DNA of 64,000 bases from Arthonia radiata (Eukaryota; Ascomycota; Arthoniomycetes; Arthoniales; Arthoniaceae), in the NCBI GenBank assembly GCA_002989075.1, contig PSQN01000011.1:587131-651130 (forward strand), read 5' to 3'. The first letter of the stretch is position 1. Every line of letters begins with the position of its first letter. The notes under the pieces are model-generated. The model saw only the letters and a list, made by a program, of their open reading frames with translations, had not been told where the DNA came from and did not search any database. Shown here one piece after another: positions 25,218 to 42,649 of the stretch. The translations under genes and the position numbers were made by a program.

Positions 25218-28200
25218 TCACTCCTTTCCCGCTCTCTCCTTCATCTCACTATCAGCCATCCCCCCCTCTCCCACACCAGTCTCCGCACCAGGGCTCGGCG
25301 CGCTACTCCTCCCCCCATGCTTCTTCCCCTTATATTTCTTCTTCTCCTTCTTCGCCGGTTGCCCCTTCGCCTCCCTCAAAACCCTCGCCTCCTCCATCAC
25401 CCTCTCCGTCTTCTCAACCCTCACCCGTTCCTTCCTCCCCTTCTCCTCCCTCACCCGTGCCTCATCCTCCCTCTTAGCCGCTAATCGCGCGTCCTCCTTT
25501 TCTCGCTCCGCGAACTCCTCGAGCGCGCGCAGCATACCCTGGACGTTCACCGCTTTATCGATGTTTTTGAGGGAAAGGCGCATGTAGTCGAATGCGGGGA
25601 TCACGGCGATGCCGGCTTCGGAGGCGGCGGTTGCGAGGCCGGCGGGGTGGGTGAGGAGGTGGGTGTATTGGGGGAAGAGGTCGGGGGAGGTTGAGGAGGG
25701 GGTGGGGTGGGGGTGGGTGTTAGAAGAAGAAGGATGGGAGGAGAGGGGCTCAGAGGCTTGCGTGCGGGCCGGGAGGGATTGATTTGTGAGGTCTGATTCG
25801 GGGGTTGGTTCGCTGGGGATGGTGGTGGTCTCGAGGTGCGCGGATGCGGCGTCTTCGTTGGGAATGTCTGGCTCGTTTGATCGGGTGGGCTGTCCGGCTT
25901 CCTTTGCGGCAATGTCATTTGAGGTGGATTGCCCATTGCTGAGGTCGTCAGGTTGTTTCCTCGTTGAAGCCTCGTTAGGCTCGATGCCCATGTCTTTTAG
26001 CTTCCTCGATCCGCCTTGGCCGCCTACGTGGCCTCCGCCCATGCCGCTCATCTTGGGGTAGCGCTGTGAGAAGTGGGTGAGGATGCATAGCTTTGCGCCC
26101 ATTTCTTTGGCTACTGTCAGGGCCTCGCCTGCGGTACTGTGCTTCTTAGCCAGTGCTTCACCACGCATATCGTCGTCGAAGGTAGCTTCGTGAATCAAGA
26201 CATGAGAGTCACGGCCGATAAAGGCAAATGGACGAGACGGTCGCGTGTCGCCTGAGTATGAGAGCTTGAAGGTCTCGTTCAAGGTCGTGGAAGCGGTGTC
26301 TGTGGATGATGAGACAGACCAGGAGCAAGCAATGGCTTGGGCGCCACGACAGTGGGGAACAAGCACCGTTGACAGTGCTGTCAGTCCGATGTAGGAGAGA
26401 TATCTAGAGGTCGGGGTGTCATCTGATGCGATGGCCTCATCTGAGGTGACAAGTCTCAGCTCTGTGGGTGTGGAGCGGTATCGATCGGTAGCGAAGCGTG
26501 TAGGCTCCGTGGCTAGTGGAAGCAGTCGCGAGAAGCCGAAATCCTCAATAGCGCTGAACTCGCGAAGCCAGTGGAGCATGGGAGCGTCTGAGACAACCGC
26601 TAAGCGGCGACCGTCTTCGTCTATCGATTCAGTACCTGTAATAGCTGAGCCAGGCGTTGACTGATGTACCGTCTCGTACCACGCGCGAATGACGGATGCT
26701 GTACCGAGATGATGGTCGGCATGCATGTGAGATATCCATATCATGCGCAAATCTTGCAAGAGACCGTCGAGCTCGGGCTTGCTGTACATTCGCCGAAGCG
26801 ATCCTAGGGTGCCCTCGCCGCAGTCGAAGAGATATGAGCCATGGTCGGGGATGCGAACAAGGGTGGCGGAAACATTGCGATGCTTGGATGGGTGGGAGGA
26901 GCCTGTACCGAGGGTTGTGATTTCGATATTAGAGTAAGCAGATGTCTTGTACCATGGCGAGTCTTGTGTTGATACGGTTGAGATATCGCTGACGGCTGAG
27001 GGCGTGACCAGATCGGCCGCTGTGGTAAGCATCCGATCTCGGTCTTCCTTCACTCTCGAGACCATGTCGGAATCAGTTGCGTACGACTGCACGTCCTCTT
27101 CACTCATGGACAGCTCGGGTTGAACATGAAGTACTAGTCCGCTTTGGGCCACGTGAAGTCGTTCAGGTAGACTTTCTTGAGTCGGAGGATGCTCAACAGT
27201 GAGATGTCGAGAATCAGCGGTGAGCTTGGGGAACACATCGGCTTCTTCGTAGTTGTGGCGCCAGGCAGCTCTTGCAGCAGTTTGCAAAACCAGGCCATCT
27301 TCCTTCGCATCCGGTGAAGAAACGATATGTTTCAGGTGGTCAAATTCCGCCTGAAAGTCTCTCAATCGAGGATCCTGTACGACGCCTGGTCCCAAAGCCC
27401 AGACGATCACACCAACACCGTCCATCAGGCCTTGATCACGCCACTCGGGACGAGAGACAAGAGCTTCGACGTAATCTACCGTGGGCAGCTCGACGACAGC
27501 GAAACCCCTGCCTTGCTTGCCAGGCTCAAGTACCATGTCCGGAGTGATCTCGTCACCATGCTTGTTTAGCACAGTATGGCCCTTCGCCAGCTTACCAAAA
27601 CTAGGCCTATCCTCCACACCAAGATCTTCCGCTTTCTGTCTCATGAATCTTCCACGTTGAGGATGGTTCTTCATGATATAACATAGCGACTCGAGTTCTG
27701 GCTCAGCTGGAGGGAGCTCTTCGGTCAAAGCGCCAGGCCAGGGCTGGCGAACAAGCACATTGATGTCGGGCAGCGTTCCTCCCGAGCCGGGCACAGGTCC
27801 TGTATATTGAGCCAGTTGGCCCGTCGTAGCATCACGCACGAAGAGTGTGGCAGGCATTTGAACATCTTTGAGAGCTTTGGGGAAGAGTTTGTCCATTCGC
27901 CAGTCACTGTCAAACATTTGTTTCACGATGCGCTTCGGTAGTGACTCTTCTCCGTTCTCAATACTTGACCCGCCATCCGTCATCTCTTCGTGGGACCTCT
28001 TCCTACTGTGCGGACGCCCGGGCGAAGCTGTACTCTTAGCACTATGCGAAGCTGCGGGCTTGATGGGCATGGCCCAAACCAACAAATGATCGTCTGTCCA
28101 TGTTGGAGGGATACCAGTGGCTTGAGCCACCACCGAGTCTGATGAGGACTGATGTTCTATTGCATGGATAGGCATCCCGGTTCGAAAAATGAACCTTCTT

Positions 28201-28622
28201 GCTGTCGCAATGGCATAATTCAGGTTTGCCGGGCCGTGTATGCGCAGGAATACATTAGACTGAGGTGCAGTCTCGGCCTTTGAGCCCTTCTTTGATGTAG
28301 TATTATGAACATCTTGTGGACTCTGGTCATGCTTCACAATCTTAGCTTGTTCTTGCTCAGCATGCGCTTCTGCAGCCGCCTTTTTCATGTCTGCGAGACC
28401 CAACATCATGCCCAACATGCCTCCAATGTTAGACCACCTCGTCCTGCCCGTCAACATCACCTCGTCTACCTTCCTCAACGCAAGGCCATGTTGCAGGCAT
28501 GCTCTTGAAGTGCCTTCCGACAGATTGCCTATCAGATATCTTCGGTCATCATAATGAAGAACTAGCAGAGTCCCGGGAGTATCGGACGTGGGCGTAGATA
28601 TCACTTCGAGATAGCTCTTCAT
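25218..28622 (-). CDS. TRZ1: Long-form tRNase Z (tRNA 3'-processing endonuclease)
   Basis: The frame is uninterrupted and gives 1134 residues from the ATG at 28622, which starts MKSYLEVISTPTSDTPGT as fungal orthologues do. The N-terminal half is the degenerate beta-lactamase domain with its exosite region. The C-terminal half is catalytic: TLGTGSSHPSKHRNVSAT, then the metal motif SHMHADHHLG, then SGDTRPSRPF and HEATFDDDM, followed by CILTHFSQRYP. It removes 3' trailers from nuclear and mitochondrial pre-tRNAs. The frame stays open upstream to about 28930 and encodes an Arg/Ser-rich, mitochondrial-presequence-like stretch (FSRSFATSALRLNPPTQHP) but has no ATG there. An upstream exon or non-AUG start could make a mitochondrial form. 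The last ~150 residues are Lys/Glu-rich. Confidence 0.95.
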   Translation of the reverse strand: MKSYLEVISTPTSDTPGTLLVLHYDDRRYLIGNLSEGTSRACLQHGLALRKVDEVMLTGRTRWSNIGGMLGMMLGLADMKKAAAEAHAEQEQAKIVKHDQSPQDVHNTTSKKGSKAETAPQSNVFLRIHGPANLNYAIATARRFIFRTGMPIHAIEHQSSSDSVVAQATGIPPTWTDDHLLVWAMPIKPAASHSAKSTASPGRPHSRKRSHEEMTDGGSSIENGEESLPKRIVKQMFDSDWRMDKLFPKALKDVQMPATLFVRDATTGQLAQYTGPVPGSGGTLPDINVLVRQPWPGALTEELPPAEPELESLCYIMKNHPQRGRFMRQKAEDLGVEDRPSFGKLAKGHTVLNKHGDEITPDMVLEPGKQGRGFAVVELPTVDYVEALVSRPEWRDQGLMDGVGVIVWALGPGVVQDPRLRDFQAEFDHLKHIVSSPDAKEDGLVLQTAARAAWRHNYEEADVFPKLTADSRHLTVEHPPTQESLPERLHVAQSGLVLHVQPELSMSEEDVQSYATDSDMVSRVKEDRDRMLTTAADLVTPSAVSDISTVSTQDSPWYKTSAYSNIEITTLGTGSSHPSKHRNVSATLVRIPDHGSYLFDCGEGTLGSLRRMYSKPELDGLLQDLRMIWISHMHADHHLGTASVIRAWYETVHQSTPGSAITGTESIDEDGRRLAVVSDAPMLHWLREFSAIEDFGFSRLLPLATEPTRFATDRYRSTPTELRLVTSDEAIASDDTPTSRYLSYIGLTALSTVLVPHCRGAQAIACSWSVSSSTDTASTTLNETFKLSYSGDTRPSRPFAFIGRDSHVLIHEATFDDDMRGEALAKKHSTAGEALTVAKEMGAKLCILTHFSQRYPKMSGMGGGHVGGQGGSRKLKDMGIEPNEASTRKQPDDLSNGQSTSNDIAAKEAGQPTRSNEPDIPNEDAASAHLETTTIPSEPTPESDLTNQSLPARTQASEPLSSHPSSSNTHPHPTPSSTSPDLFPQYTHLLTHPAGLATAASEAGIAVIPAFDYMRLSLKNIDKAVNVQGMLRALEEFAEREKEDARLAAKREDEARVREEKGRKERVRVEKTERVMEEARVLREAKGQPAKKEKKKYKGKKHGGRSSAPSPGAETGVGEGGMADSEMKERAGKE

Positions 28623-29074
28623 CCTTAGACCAAAGCCAGCAAGCGCTGGCACGTAAGGATGTTGTGTTGGCGGATTAAGACGTAGAGCGGAGGTCGCGAA
28701 GCTACGGCTGAAAGAATGTCTGTTCGCGATTGAGCGATGAGAGCGGACCTGCCGCTTCGACCGACTTGGGTCTTCTATGCGAAAATTAGATGGCCTTCTA
28801 TTAAAAGCGATTAGGCGAATCGAAACACGCAGCTTCGGTGGGCGGGTCGTGAATCGTGACGACGTGGTAGAGACATGTAGAGAAGAAGCCACAATTATCG
28901 GTATTATAGATTTACGAACTAAGATATGGCCGCCATCGCTGTGAGTCCGACTTCATTGATCATGACTTGCATGAAGTCCGTGGAAGCCATATAGAAGATC
29001 GAACACCGTGATGTGGGTCTCAATTCACACTGCTAAATGCCACAATAGTAGATAGAGACACCCTTGGTCTGCCA
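28623..29074. promoter_or_regulatory. Shared divergent promoter of tRNase Z and PPR genes
   Basis: The start codons are 452 bp apart. The 270 bp next to tRNase Z could be coding if a mitochondrial isoform exists, leaving only about 150-180 bp between the two units. No binding-site consensus was recognised. Confidence 0.5.
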
Positions 29075-39666: not shown

Positions 39667-39688
39667 GCCTCGTTGGCGCAGTGGCAAC

Positions 39689-39740
39689 GTACGTGCTTGT
39701 CCATTCTGTCTGCTGTAAACAACAAGTTGACTCCATCCAG
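39689..39740 (+). other. Insertion/intron 1 in the D arm of tRNA-Thr
   Basis: 52 nt, GTACGT...CCAG, inserted after tRNA position 23. It contains GTTGACTCCAT at 39726-39736, whose TTGAC could serve as a branch site 10 nt from the 3' end. It looks like a short spliceosomal intron rather than a tRNA-endonuclease intron. Confidence 0.75.
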
Positions 39741-39748
39741 GCGTCGCA

Positions 39749-39800
39749 GTAAGTTTCCCTATACGTCCTCAACGAATATGTTTGTTGACTCCATTACTAG
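39749..39800 (+). other. Insertion/intron 2 at the anticodon stem-loop border of tRNA-Thr
   Basis: 52 nt, GTAAGT...TACTAG, inserted between tRNA positions 31 and 32. It contains the same GTTGACTCCAT 11-mer at 39784-39794, with the candidate branch A 12 nt before the 3' end. It has the same length as insertion 1 and a perfect consensus donor. Confidence 0.75.
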
Positions 39801-39863
39801 CTTGTAATGCGAAGATCACTGGTTCAATTCCAGTACGAGGCAGTCCATTGACAAATCCATTTC

Positions 39864-39868
39864 TTTTT
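39864..39868 (+). terminator. RNA polymerase III T5 terminator
   Basis: Five consecutive T residues, 22 nt after the mature 3' end of tRNA-Thr; the first such run downstream of the gene. Confidence 0.75.
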
Positions 39869-40125: not shown

Positions 40126-42649
40126 ATGACGGATCTAATCTTCCGCAAAGACCTTGAAAAGGCAATCGAGCCATGCCTAGTCGCTCTCTGTCCTACGATG
40201 GACATAGCAGCGTTCGCAGCGGGAGGAGACGCTGTTGAGGTCTGCCGCTTCGACGGACAGCGCGTCTTTCGCCACGAGCGAGGGGACTCAGAGGACAGTA
40301 CTGTGACGTCTCTTGCATGGCAATCGAAAGGTGAGTTGAGTTCATCAAGTTGGACCCGTGAAGTGTGGTTACTGAAGCCAGCCAGGAGAAATGCTCTCAG
40401 TCATGTGGAGCGATGGTGTCATGCAATCATTAGAACCTAAACAGGGCAGACTCCTGAGACAAAGTACTACACGTCCTCGAGAGCTAGCAGCAACGCCAGC
40501 AAGCCAGCTAATCACACACACCTACGACTCGCATGACTTTGAGCGGCCGGCCTGGGGCGAGCGTAGTGATGATGGCGTCGATGCGCTCGTCGATGACTGG
40601 GCTTCTTCTCTCAAGCTCGAGGGCAATGACCACCAGACCTCAACAACACATGACGTGAAACCAAGCAAGGAAGTCATCAACGACTTCCTTCCACGAAAAC
40701 TGGCTCTCATGGACCTGCAAACAGACCTGCCACGCCTGAGCGCCTTGCCACACACGCAAGAAGCGGGTAACGTAGCAAAAGCCAAGCCCAATGCCTACAC
40801 CACTCAGGAAGCTGTTGATGGTGCATTTGATTCCAGTGCCATACACACTCCAGGAGTCAACATAATTTGCACTGGATGGACAAGCGGCGCCTGGAACGTC
40901 ACAATCTCCAATTTCTTGTGCGACTGGCCTCCCCCACTTGAGCCTACTCCGGGCTCCACGACCGTCGGACATGCGTCTTCTACTTATAGCAGTGGACATG
41001 CTTTCCTCACCCGCACGGACGATGTCCTGAGATTGCGATTATGTTATTTCAATCCAATCCGCCAAAGCTCGTACTATTTCCCACTCATCACCTGTCTGAC
41101 CCAATACCTGGACAGCGCCGCCCTTTATATTCTCCATACAGTCTTTGCCATACGCGCCGCATATCACAACGCCACAGATGTCCCCAACCGATTCATCTCT
41201 GTTATCCGAGAGCTCCTTCAAGAAGACAACGAACACACAGCCCGTCGTGGTAAAGCAGACCTCGACGCTGCGTTCTACCACACGGCCTCGCTGGGCGACA
41301 TCCATCCGGTTCTCCGCGAATGGCTTGCTGATGTGCTTCAAGAGCGCGGCCACAAGCGCTGGGATGCCGCTGTCACGAACGGTCTGGCGGAAGTTGTCCG
41401 CCTCACAAATGTCTGCCTCCTTCCTGCACTCGATCGGGCCAGCGTGATCACGTCGCGCCTGCGGGGTCTTTCGCGGATGGAACCCCAGCTGCCTGTGTGG
41501 CGCGTCGACCCCGAATTTCTCACCCACATCCTTGCAGACCTTGATATCCTCCGCCTCGTCGGGAACCACATTCTCAGATACGCCGCCGACGAACTTGCGC
41601 GCTTCCGCACCTTTTCCGCCTGGTTAGGCCATCAAATTGTCATTGCTACCGCCGACTCACCCGAGTCGCAATCTGCAATCGACGCCGCTGAGAGAGCCGC
41701 AGCGATCGATCACAACGAGCTTTTCGCCTACATCACGGGCCCGCTGCTCAAAAGTCATCTGCCCTACTTCCTCACACGGGAGACCCGCGAGGTTCAAGAC
41801 GCACCACGGACTAATCAAATGCAGTGGAAGTGGAATATGATGGTCAACGTCCTTGACGGTCACGAGAAACGATGCATTCAACCTCGACCGGGCAAGGAAG
41901 GCATGCCTGGTGGCCGCGTGGAGGTTGTCAACCTTCTCTGGCAAGCGTTAATGGCCAGAGGCAACATGCAAACGGCATCCTCGTTGCCTGCGATAAATTT
42001 CTGGGCAGGCTGTCCATTAACAATGCCTTGGGATGTGGGCAAAGACCATGTTGAAGACATGAAGATGATCGAGATAGACTCCAAGCTAGACCCAAGATTG
42101 GTGGAGGACCCCATGGCAGTGACAATGATCCTCACGACCAACACAGAGAAAACGCAACTGCATCTTACGCGCGTGCGTCATCCGCTGCACTCCGAGCCTG
42201 ACACCGGCGCGAACCAATGGGGTAGAATCGCGACGTCTCAGCTGGGGAGCGTGGACGGCAATGTCATCGTCGGCGCCCGCTTTCTGACCGCGCATACAGT
42301 GCTTGCGCTCATGACCGACGACTTCCTCACGACTGCGGATGTGGGACGCCGGCGATTTGCAGTCTGTGAATTGTCGTCGCCGCCTCCGGAAGGCAGACCA
42401 GGCGACTATACGAGCAGCAATGTCACGATCGAGCATAAGGAATTGCAGTGCTCGTGGAGGTTCCTGAACTCCACCCAGGGTAAGAATCTGGATGTGGGAG
42501 AGGGATGGGAGTGTCGGCTTGATCATGAGAAGGAGAAGAGAGACGGAGGCGAGGGGGAGGCGAGTGCGCTTGTGGTTGGGGTGGCTGGAGAGGGCAGAAC
42601 GGTGAAGGTCTGGAGGCAGGGGTTGATCATGCAGTGGGGAAAAGTGTGA
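40126..42649 (+). CDS. APC4: Anaphase-promoting complex subunit 4
   Basis: Exons 40126-40330 and 40386-42649 join across a GTGAGT intron, giving 822 residues. The N-terminus carries the APC4 WD40-like start (LCPTMDIAAFAAGGDAVEVC, then GQRVFRHERG and SLAWQSKGEMLSVMWSDGV). The APC4 helical domain follows from ~280 (LDSAALYILHTVFAIRAAYH; VLREWLADVLQERGHKRWDA; LRLVGNHILRYAADELARFR). APC4 is a scaffold subunit of the APC/C ubiquitin ligase that drives mitotic exit. The C-terminal ~200 residues are a second beta-rich part with a G/E-rich end. Confidence 0.9.

Follow-up and report, generated by a model that had tools for sequence, protein, structure and literature searches.

The window analysed here, a 64,000-nt stretch of Arthonia radiata DNA, carries at positions 39667-39842 of the plus strand a tRNA-Thr(UGU) gene in three exons (22, 8 and 42 nt) with two 52-nt inserts between them. 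Exon 1 (39667..39688, tRNA positions 1-23) provides the 5' strand of the acceptor stem, the A box (39674-39684) and the 5' part of the D arm. It is followed by intron 1 (39689..39740), which splits the D stem at 23/24, starts with GTACGT and ends with CAG, and by the 8-nt exon 2 (39741..39748, positions 24-31), comprising the 3' end of the D stem and the 5' strand of the anticodon stem. Intron 2 (39749..39800), located at 31/32, runs from GTAAGT to TAG, and exon 3 (39801..39842, positions 32-73) supplies the anticodon loop CTTGTAA with the anticodon at 39803-39805, the T arm with the B box (39821-39831) and the 3' strand of the acceptor stem. Both inserts contain a branch-like TTGAC motif (39727-39731 and 39785-39789), with 10 nt following its A in intron 1 and 12 nt in intron 2. 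The A box, TGGCGCAGTGG, agrees at 7 of 8 fixed letters and the B box, GGTTCAATTCC, matches the pattern exactly; a TTTTT run on the same strand at 39864..39868, 22-26 nt downstream of the gene, is the likely RNA polymerase III (Pol III) terminator. On the minus strand, 11 kb from this gene, an open frame at 25218-28952 encodes tRNase Z, a tRNA 3'-end processing enzyme, with its nearest named relatives in Coniocarpon cinnabarinum (63%) and Alyxoria varia (53%); Coniocarpon belongs to the Arthoniales, as presumably does Alyxoria, and we take both to be lichen fungi. The proximity of the two genes is probably a coincidence.

When both inserts were removed, ARAGORN reported a tRNA-Thr(tgt) of 72 bases with the loop CTTGTAA. 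The original prediction, made from the letters of the window, had proposed a tRNA-Thr(UGU) gene split at 23/24 and 31/32, and its insert coordinates proved correct to the base, as did the ends of both inserts, the TTGAC motif near each 3' end, the two internal promoters, the anticodon loop of the spliced product and the T5 run. It had also stated that all stems are restored, which held for the acceptor (7/7), anticodon (5/5) and T (5/5) stems but not for the D stem, where 3 of 4 pairs form and C13.A22 is a mismatch. The unspliced window yielded no tRNA by ARAGORN at default settings or by Rfam at gathering cut-offs, and no tRNA was found in the no-intron ARAGORN search when one insert was removed and the other left. 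With an anticodon-loop intron allowed, ARAGORN called the unspliced stretch tRNA-Ser(act), placing a 98-nt insert in it and leaving its anticodon stem mismatched; the version lacking only intron 2 was called Trp(cca). The parse score was 27.25 with both GT-AG introns taken out versus at best 23.2 with none taken out. Among 256 terminal-dinucleotide pairs, GT..AG gave the sole best two-insert parse (27.25, next 25.25), and none of 2000 dinucleotide-preserving shuffles of the middle of the gene, with both ends kept, reached this score (maximum 26.45).

We then find that this architecture is widespread in the assembly (33.5 Mb, 16 contigs). An Rfam tRNA search returned 16 matches at E <= 0.001 and 20 at E <= 10 (63 of 1065 candidates scored), and from these matches together with B-box patterns we recognised 30 tRNA genes; recognition was by parse and not by pattern, the B-box patterns themselves being not enriched over the control (89 rows versus 115, 36 versus 54, 56 versus 66 and 14 versus 31). 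The sequence retrieved for parsing covered a minority of the 56 matches and a part of the 89 and of the 36. GT-AG inserts were present in 16 of the 30 genes, 24 introns in total at one to three per gene, namely in Thr UGU, Arg CCG, Asn GUU, Lys UUU, His GUG, Gln CUG, Thr AGU, Ala UGC, a second Trp-like gene, Leu UAA, Thr CGU, Tyr GUA, Glu CUC, Arg UCU, Leu CAG and Ala CGC. The 14 genes without such an insert were Cys, two elongator Met, initiator Met, Trp, Arg CCU, Arg UCG, Gln UUG, Phe, Pro, Lys CUU, Asp, Leu AAG and Ala AGC. Locus L050, named Trp by both ARAGORN and the solver, has an anticodon-stem mismatch and could be another isotype. Neither the Rfam matches nor the B-box matches examined contained a recognisable tRNA for Gly, Ile, Val or Ser, so the set of 30 is incomplete; the genes for these four may be split within the T arm or acceptor stem. 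Loci L082-L088 gave no parse above 17.6. Locus L081 (C15:1542235-1542500, minus strand) is tRNA-like, with a T arm and a T7 run, and scored 21.4 and 16.9 in two parsing runs, but the parse lacks T33 and gave no clear tRNA either with or without GT-AG introns. Two tandem tRNA pairs lie 3-7 nt apart, Trp-iMet (C3:815151-815302) and Phe-Pro (C7:416249-416544), the latter with unusually long anticodon-loop inserts of 72-76 nt.

The 24 GT-AG introns are 49-61 nt long and are spread from the acceptor stem to the T stem, at 4/5, 9/10, 10/11, 14/15 (twice), 16/18, 17/18, 19/20, 20a/21, 23/24, 24/25, 25/26, 30/31, 31/32 (twice), 33/34, 44/45, 45/46, 47/48, 48/49, 51/52, 52/53, 59/60 and 62/63, as derived by hand from the spliced indices. 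All have GT..AG ends, by the rule of the search itself, and 20 begin with a GTNNGT 5' splice site, the exceptions being GTAAAT, GTGAGC, GTACGC and GTAGCT. A YTRAY branch motif was present in all 24, with 10-15 nt after its A; 18 of these introns were parsed without a branch criterion, and the other six (two in Glu, one each in Arg UCU and Leu CAG, two in Ala CGC) were initially identified by eye, the motif being visible to the reader. A branch-filtered solver, run later, recovered Arg UCU and Leu CAG and missed Ala CGC. Some of the exons between introns are only 6-8 nt long. ARAGORN called all 16 spliced sequences tRNA, with the expected isotype label in 12 of them (Asn, Thr AGU, Leu UAA and Leu CAG were labelled otherwise). 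In the Glu(CUC) gene the reading could have failed. In its first piece, GTTCAATTCC is followed by GTGAGC, the start of a T-stem intron, with no matching acceptor, and pairing in the T stem and acceptor stem required CGG and TATCCGA after a further AG; in the piece retrieved next, a 50-nt intron with ACTAAC and CACAG is followed by CGGTATCCGA and a T9 run, fitting the required pairing. Anticodon-loop inserts are also present in 14 of the 16 genes with GT-AG introns (all but Thr UGU and Arg CCG), where they measure 6-29 nt by parse, the 6-nt insert of Thr CGU being the least certain of them; such inserts occur in 8 of the 14 other genes too.

Several controls bear on whether these parses could arise from chance GT and AG dinucleotides. 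The 256-pair control was applied to 11 of the 16 interrupted genes, leaving out Asn and the four genes found last. GT..AG was the unique best pair for Thr UGU, Arg CCG and Thr CGU and tied for best in His, Thr AGU, Ala UGC, the second Trp-like gene, Leu UAA and Gln; it ranked only 4th for Tyr(GUA) and 26th for Lys(UUU). Junctions in the D loop are not fixed by structure alone, and the controls support loop junctions less sharply. The retrieved loci and the window were also put through an anchored scan, in which 25 of the 31 T-arm candidates in the real sequence scored at least 22.5, interrupted and uninterrupted genes taken together, and the next scored 20.9; the reversed sequence gave 6 candidates, the best at 20.2. 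Chance as the source of the parses was rejected on the basis of the 256-pair, shuffle and reversed-sequence controls.

To place these introns among others in the genome, we compared them with those of U6 snRNA and of predicted mRNAs. The U6 family gave three genes above its cut-off and five weaker matches. Sequence was inspected for the three above the cut-off (C12:477505; C14:1994261, minus strand; C2:1988225), and all of them carry an intron of the form GTRYGT...CTGAC...AG, 51-56 nt long, at one common site between GCCCCTGCA and CTAAGGATGAC. The 5S rRNA genes, with 7 matches on four contigs (47 of 1547 candidates scored), were uninterrupted throughout. A search that itself required GTNNGT and a branch motif predicted 16 mRNA introns with at least 80 codons on each side in the real sequence versus 3 in the reversed one, 6 of the 16 being 50-59 nt long and GTGAGT and GTAAGT being the commonest 5' ends; with the same required motifs, the counts were 34 versus 14 at 60 codons or more and 85 versus 45 at 40 or more. 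This set of candidate mRNA introns resembles the tRNA introns, but the comparison is soft, given the motifs built into the search and the counts in the reversed sequence.

The signals expected of Pol III genes were similar in the interrupted genes and in the uninterrupted ones tested, which were 12 of the 14 in each comparison (the TATA test omits the downstream members of the two tandem pairs and the T-run test the upstream members). A downstream T-run followed 14 of the 16 interrupted genes (within 54 nt) and 11 of the 12 uninterrupted ones (within 50 nt), at a background of 13%, and was missing within 60 nt in the other two interrupted genes. A TATA element at -45..-15 was found in 10 of 16 interrupted and 8 of 12 uninterrupted genes, at a background of 5.8%; none was seen by eye upstream of Thr(UGU). 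No internal TTTTT occurs in any of the 16 interrupted pre-tRNAs. TTTT was found in 2 of the 24 introns versus 4.8 expected, a depletion that is weak and was set aside as a supporting signal. The introns do not spare the internal promoters. Leu UAA, Tyr and Thr CGU each have an intron that leaves the A box, read as an unbroken stretch, with 4, 5 and 6 of its 8 fixed letters, respectively. An acceptor-stem intron shifts the A box downstream in Leu CAG, and an intron lies inside the B box in Arg UCU; the idea that introns are confined between the two boxes was dropped, both boxes being cut. Such broken boxes are awkward for Pol III unless a TATA element or letters of the intron stand in, as the TATA element may do.

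As for the machinery that would remove the inserts, the original prediction proposed that a Pol III tRNA would depend here on mRNA-type splicing or on a relaxed endonuclease. In the latter case, the inserts would be ectopic introns of the bulge-helix-bulge (BHB) type cut by a relaxed Sen complex, and their GT-AG ends would be incidental. The Sen catalytic family is indeed present in the genome (PF01974, 2 matches), and PMC4090602 and PMC3978253 describe ectopic tRNA introns, some having a defined BHB and others not, in Cyanidioschyzon merolae and Guillardia nucleomorphs. The His intron fits a strict BHB (3-4-3, with 4/4 central and at least three outer pairs), and 4/4 central pairs form in 3 of the 24 introns versus 2.0% of random placements, the introns having been given the best of their equivalent registers and the random placements not. 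However, the strict BHB is absent from the other 23 introns (1/24 versus 0.6% of random placements), all 24 combine GT..AG ends with a branch motif at a narrow distance, and the U6 genes carry the same intron type. BHB introns were thus rejected as the explanation, and we regard this reading as very unlikely. The branch motifs, the presence of GT-AG inserts in 16 of 30 genes, the intron-bearing U6 genes and the single strict BHB together favour the first of the two proposed routes, mRNA-type splicing. Spliceosomal introns normally accompany Pol II, and it might be supposed that the tRNA exons come from a longer, spliced Pol II RNA, such as the leader of an APC4-like gene, and are cut out afterwards; an APC4-like open frame indeed begins at 40376 on the same strand, after Thr(UGU), and TATA-like elements stand upstream of many interrupted genes, though not of Thr(UGU) by eye. 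The T-runs after 14 of 16 tRNAs, the lack of internal TTTTT in all 16 and the intact A and B boxes of Thr(UGU) argue against such an origin, as does the sharing of the same TATA and T-run signals by the uninterrupted tRNA genes tested, and we give it very little credence.

It could also be argued that insertions have destroyed or silenced this tRNA gene and that another gene supplies the tRNA, since short insertions in the D or T arm of eukaryotic tRNA genes have usually been taken for pseudogenes, according to PMC4090602, and since the recognised tRNA set is incomplete. The search for other Thr(UGU) genes, run in part, speaks against this. Compared with the assembly, the spliced Thr(UGU) sequence matched its own 3' exon only and spliced His(GUG) matched its own gene only, without an intact second copy of either, and a dead copy beside an intact gene was rejected for both. 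A pattern for the 3' half of Thr(UGU) gave 14 matches, which were Thr(UGU), Glu(CUC) and 12 judged non-tRNA by the matched letters alone. No intact Asn, Tyr, His, Lys(UUU) or Thr gene appeared among the 20 Rfam matches (63 of 1065 candidates scored), and for nine other spliced tRNAs the evidence is that these 20 matches include no intact copy. In all 16 genes, moreover, the exons restore a tRNA, which decay would not be expected to preserve, and we consider it highly improbable that the locus is dead.

The introns themselves gave few indications of where they came from. A DNA search of the genome with intron 1, exon 2 and intron 2 of Thr(UGU) found only that stretch itself, and the longest exact share among 27 introns (24 of tRNA, 3 of U6) was 11 nt. 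The two Thr introns share GTTGACTCCAT, and three other pairs among the 27 introns share 11 nt. With no other copy of the Thr introns and no longer share, an introner or other mobile intron family was rejected for the Thr introns. In Gln(CUG) (L015), the T-stem GT-AG intron has the 7-nt sequence AGGTTCG directly repeated on its two sides and leaves the B box intact, as if it had arisen by duplication. Target-site duplication as a general origin was rejected, the mean flanking repeat being 1.38 nt versus 1.33 nt with introns permuted among sites and only that of Gln(CUG) being long.

Taken together, these results make it very probable that the Thr(UGU) gene, the only one of its kind found, is expressed as one Pol III precursor from which two U2-type introns are removed by the spliceosome, and that it is one of at least 16 such tRNA genes. 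From the sequence features described above, we infer Pol III transcription, spliceosomal removal of the GT-AG introns, removal of the anticodon-loop inserts by the tRNA endonuclease, and the order of these steps. In the mechanism we propose, Thr(UGU) would be transcribed by Pol III as a single precursor, its inserts, as ordinary U2-type spliceosomal introns, would be cut out by the mRNA spliceosome before the tRNA folds, and the ends would then be trimmed to give a standard tRNA. In the 14 genes that have a loop insert too, the Sen tRNA endonuclease and a ligase would act in addition, and these tRNAs would therefore need two unrelated splicing systems. It is likely that the spliceosome is essential for tRNA maturation in this fungus. 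About half or more of its tRNA genes would carry U2-type introns in Pol III transcripts, among them every gene found for Asn, His and Tyr, and most of these precursors would need the tRNA endonuclease as well; such introns would form a further tRNA intron class beside BHB, group I and group II introns. If this is true, protein synthesis depends directly on the spliceosome through tRNAs, in contrast to the textbook view that tRNAs do not use the mRNA-splicing machinery. If the genes work as read, the spliceosome processes tRNAs, is able to join exons of 6-8 nt in a Pol III transcript and shares one molecule with the tRNA endonuclease. Ectopic GT-AG introns might also account for the low number of tRNAs that standard finders detect in such genomes, and the genes would offer a natural system for testing by what route introns get into genes for structured RNAs and what limits splicing to transcripts of Pol II.

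In a literature search by title and by the start of the abstract, with preprints and most subscription journals outside its scope, none of the papers listed describes a spliceosomal intron in a nuclear tRNA gene. Non-coding RNA is a known host of spliceosomal introns, but tRNA genes are a class for which we found none reported. In lichen-forming ascomycetes, spliceosomal introns occur in nuclear rDNA, one of them of 57 bp according to PMC8527467; the likeness is that of spliceosomal introns in a non-coding RNA gene, and the difference is that the hosts there are rRNA genes, the main text never using the word 'tRNA'. For C. merolae and nucleomorphs, PMC4090602 and PMC3978253 describe tRNA genes with more than one intron, placed at non-canonical positions, and these systems resemble the present one in having multiple ectopic tRNA introns in a nuclear-type genome. 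However, the introns of C. merolae are ascribed there to the tRNA endonuclease (BHB) and those of Guillardia measure 3-24 nt, whereas the introns described here measure 49-61 nt, have GT-AG ends and a branch motif, and lack a strict BHB in 23 of 24 cases. The canonical 37/38 introns of nuclear tRNA genes are also present here, in 14 of the 16 GT-AG genes and 8 of the 14 others, and differ in position and in the system that would remove them, none of the 24 GT-AG introns being at 37/38. The mRNA-type introns known in fungal U6 snRNA and U3 snoRNA are alike in placing GT-AG ends and a branch site within a small structured RNA, which in the case of U6 is itself a Pol III product; here, in contrast, the host is tRNA, and the introns are found in many genes and at many positions, with up to three in one gene beside an anticodon-loop insert.
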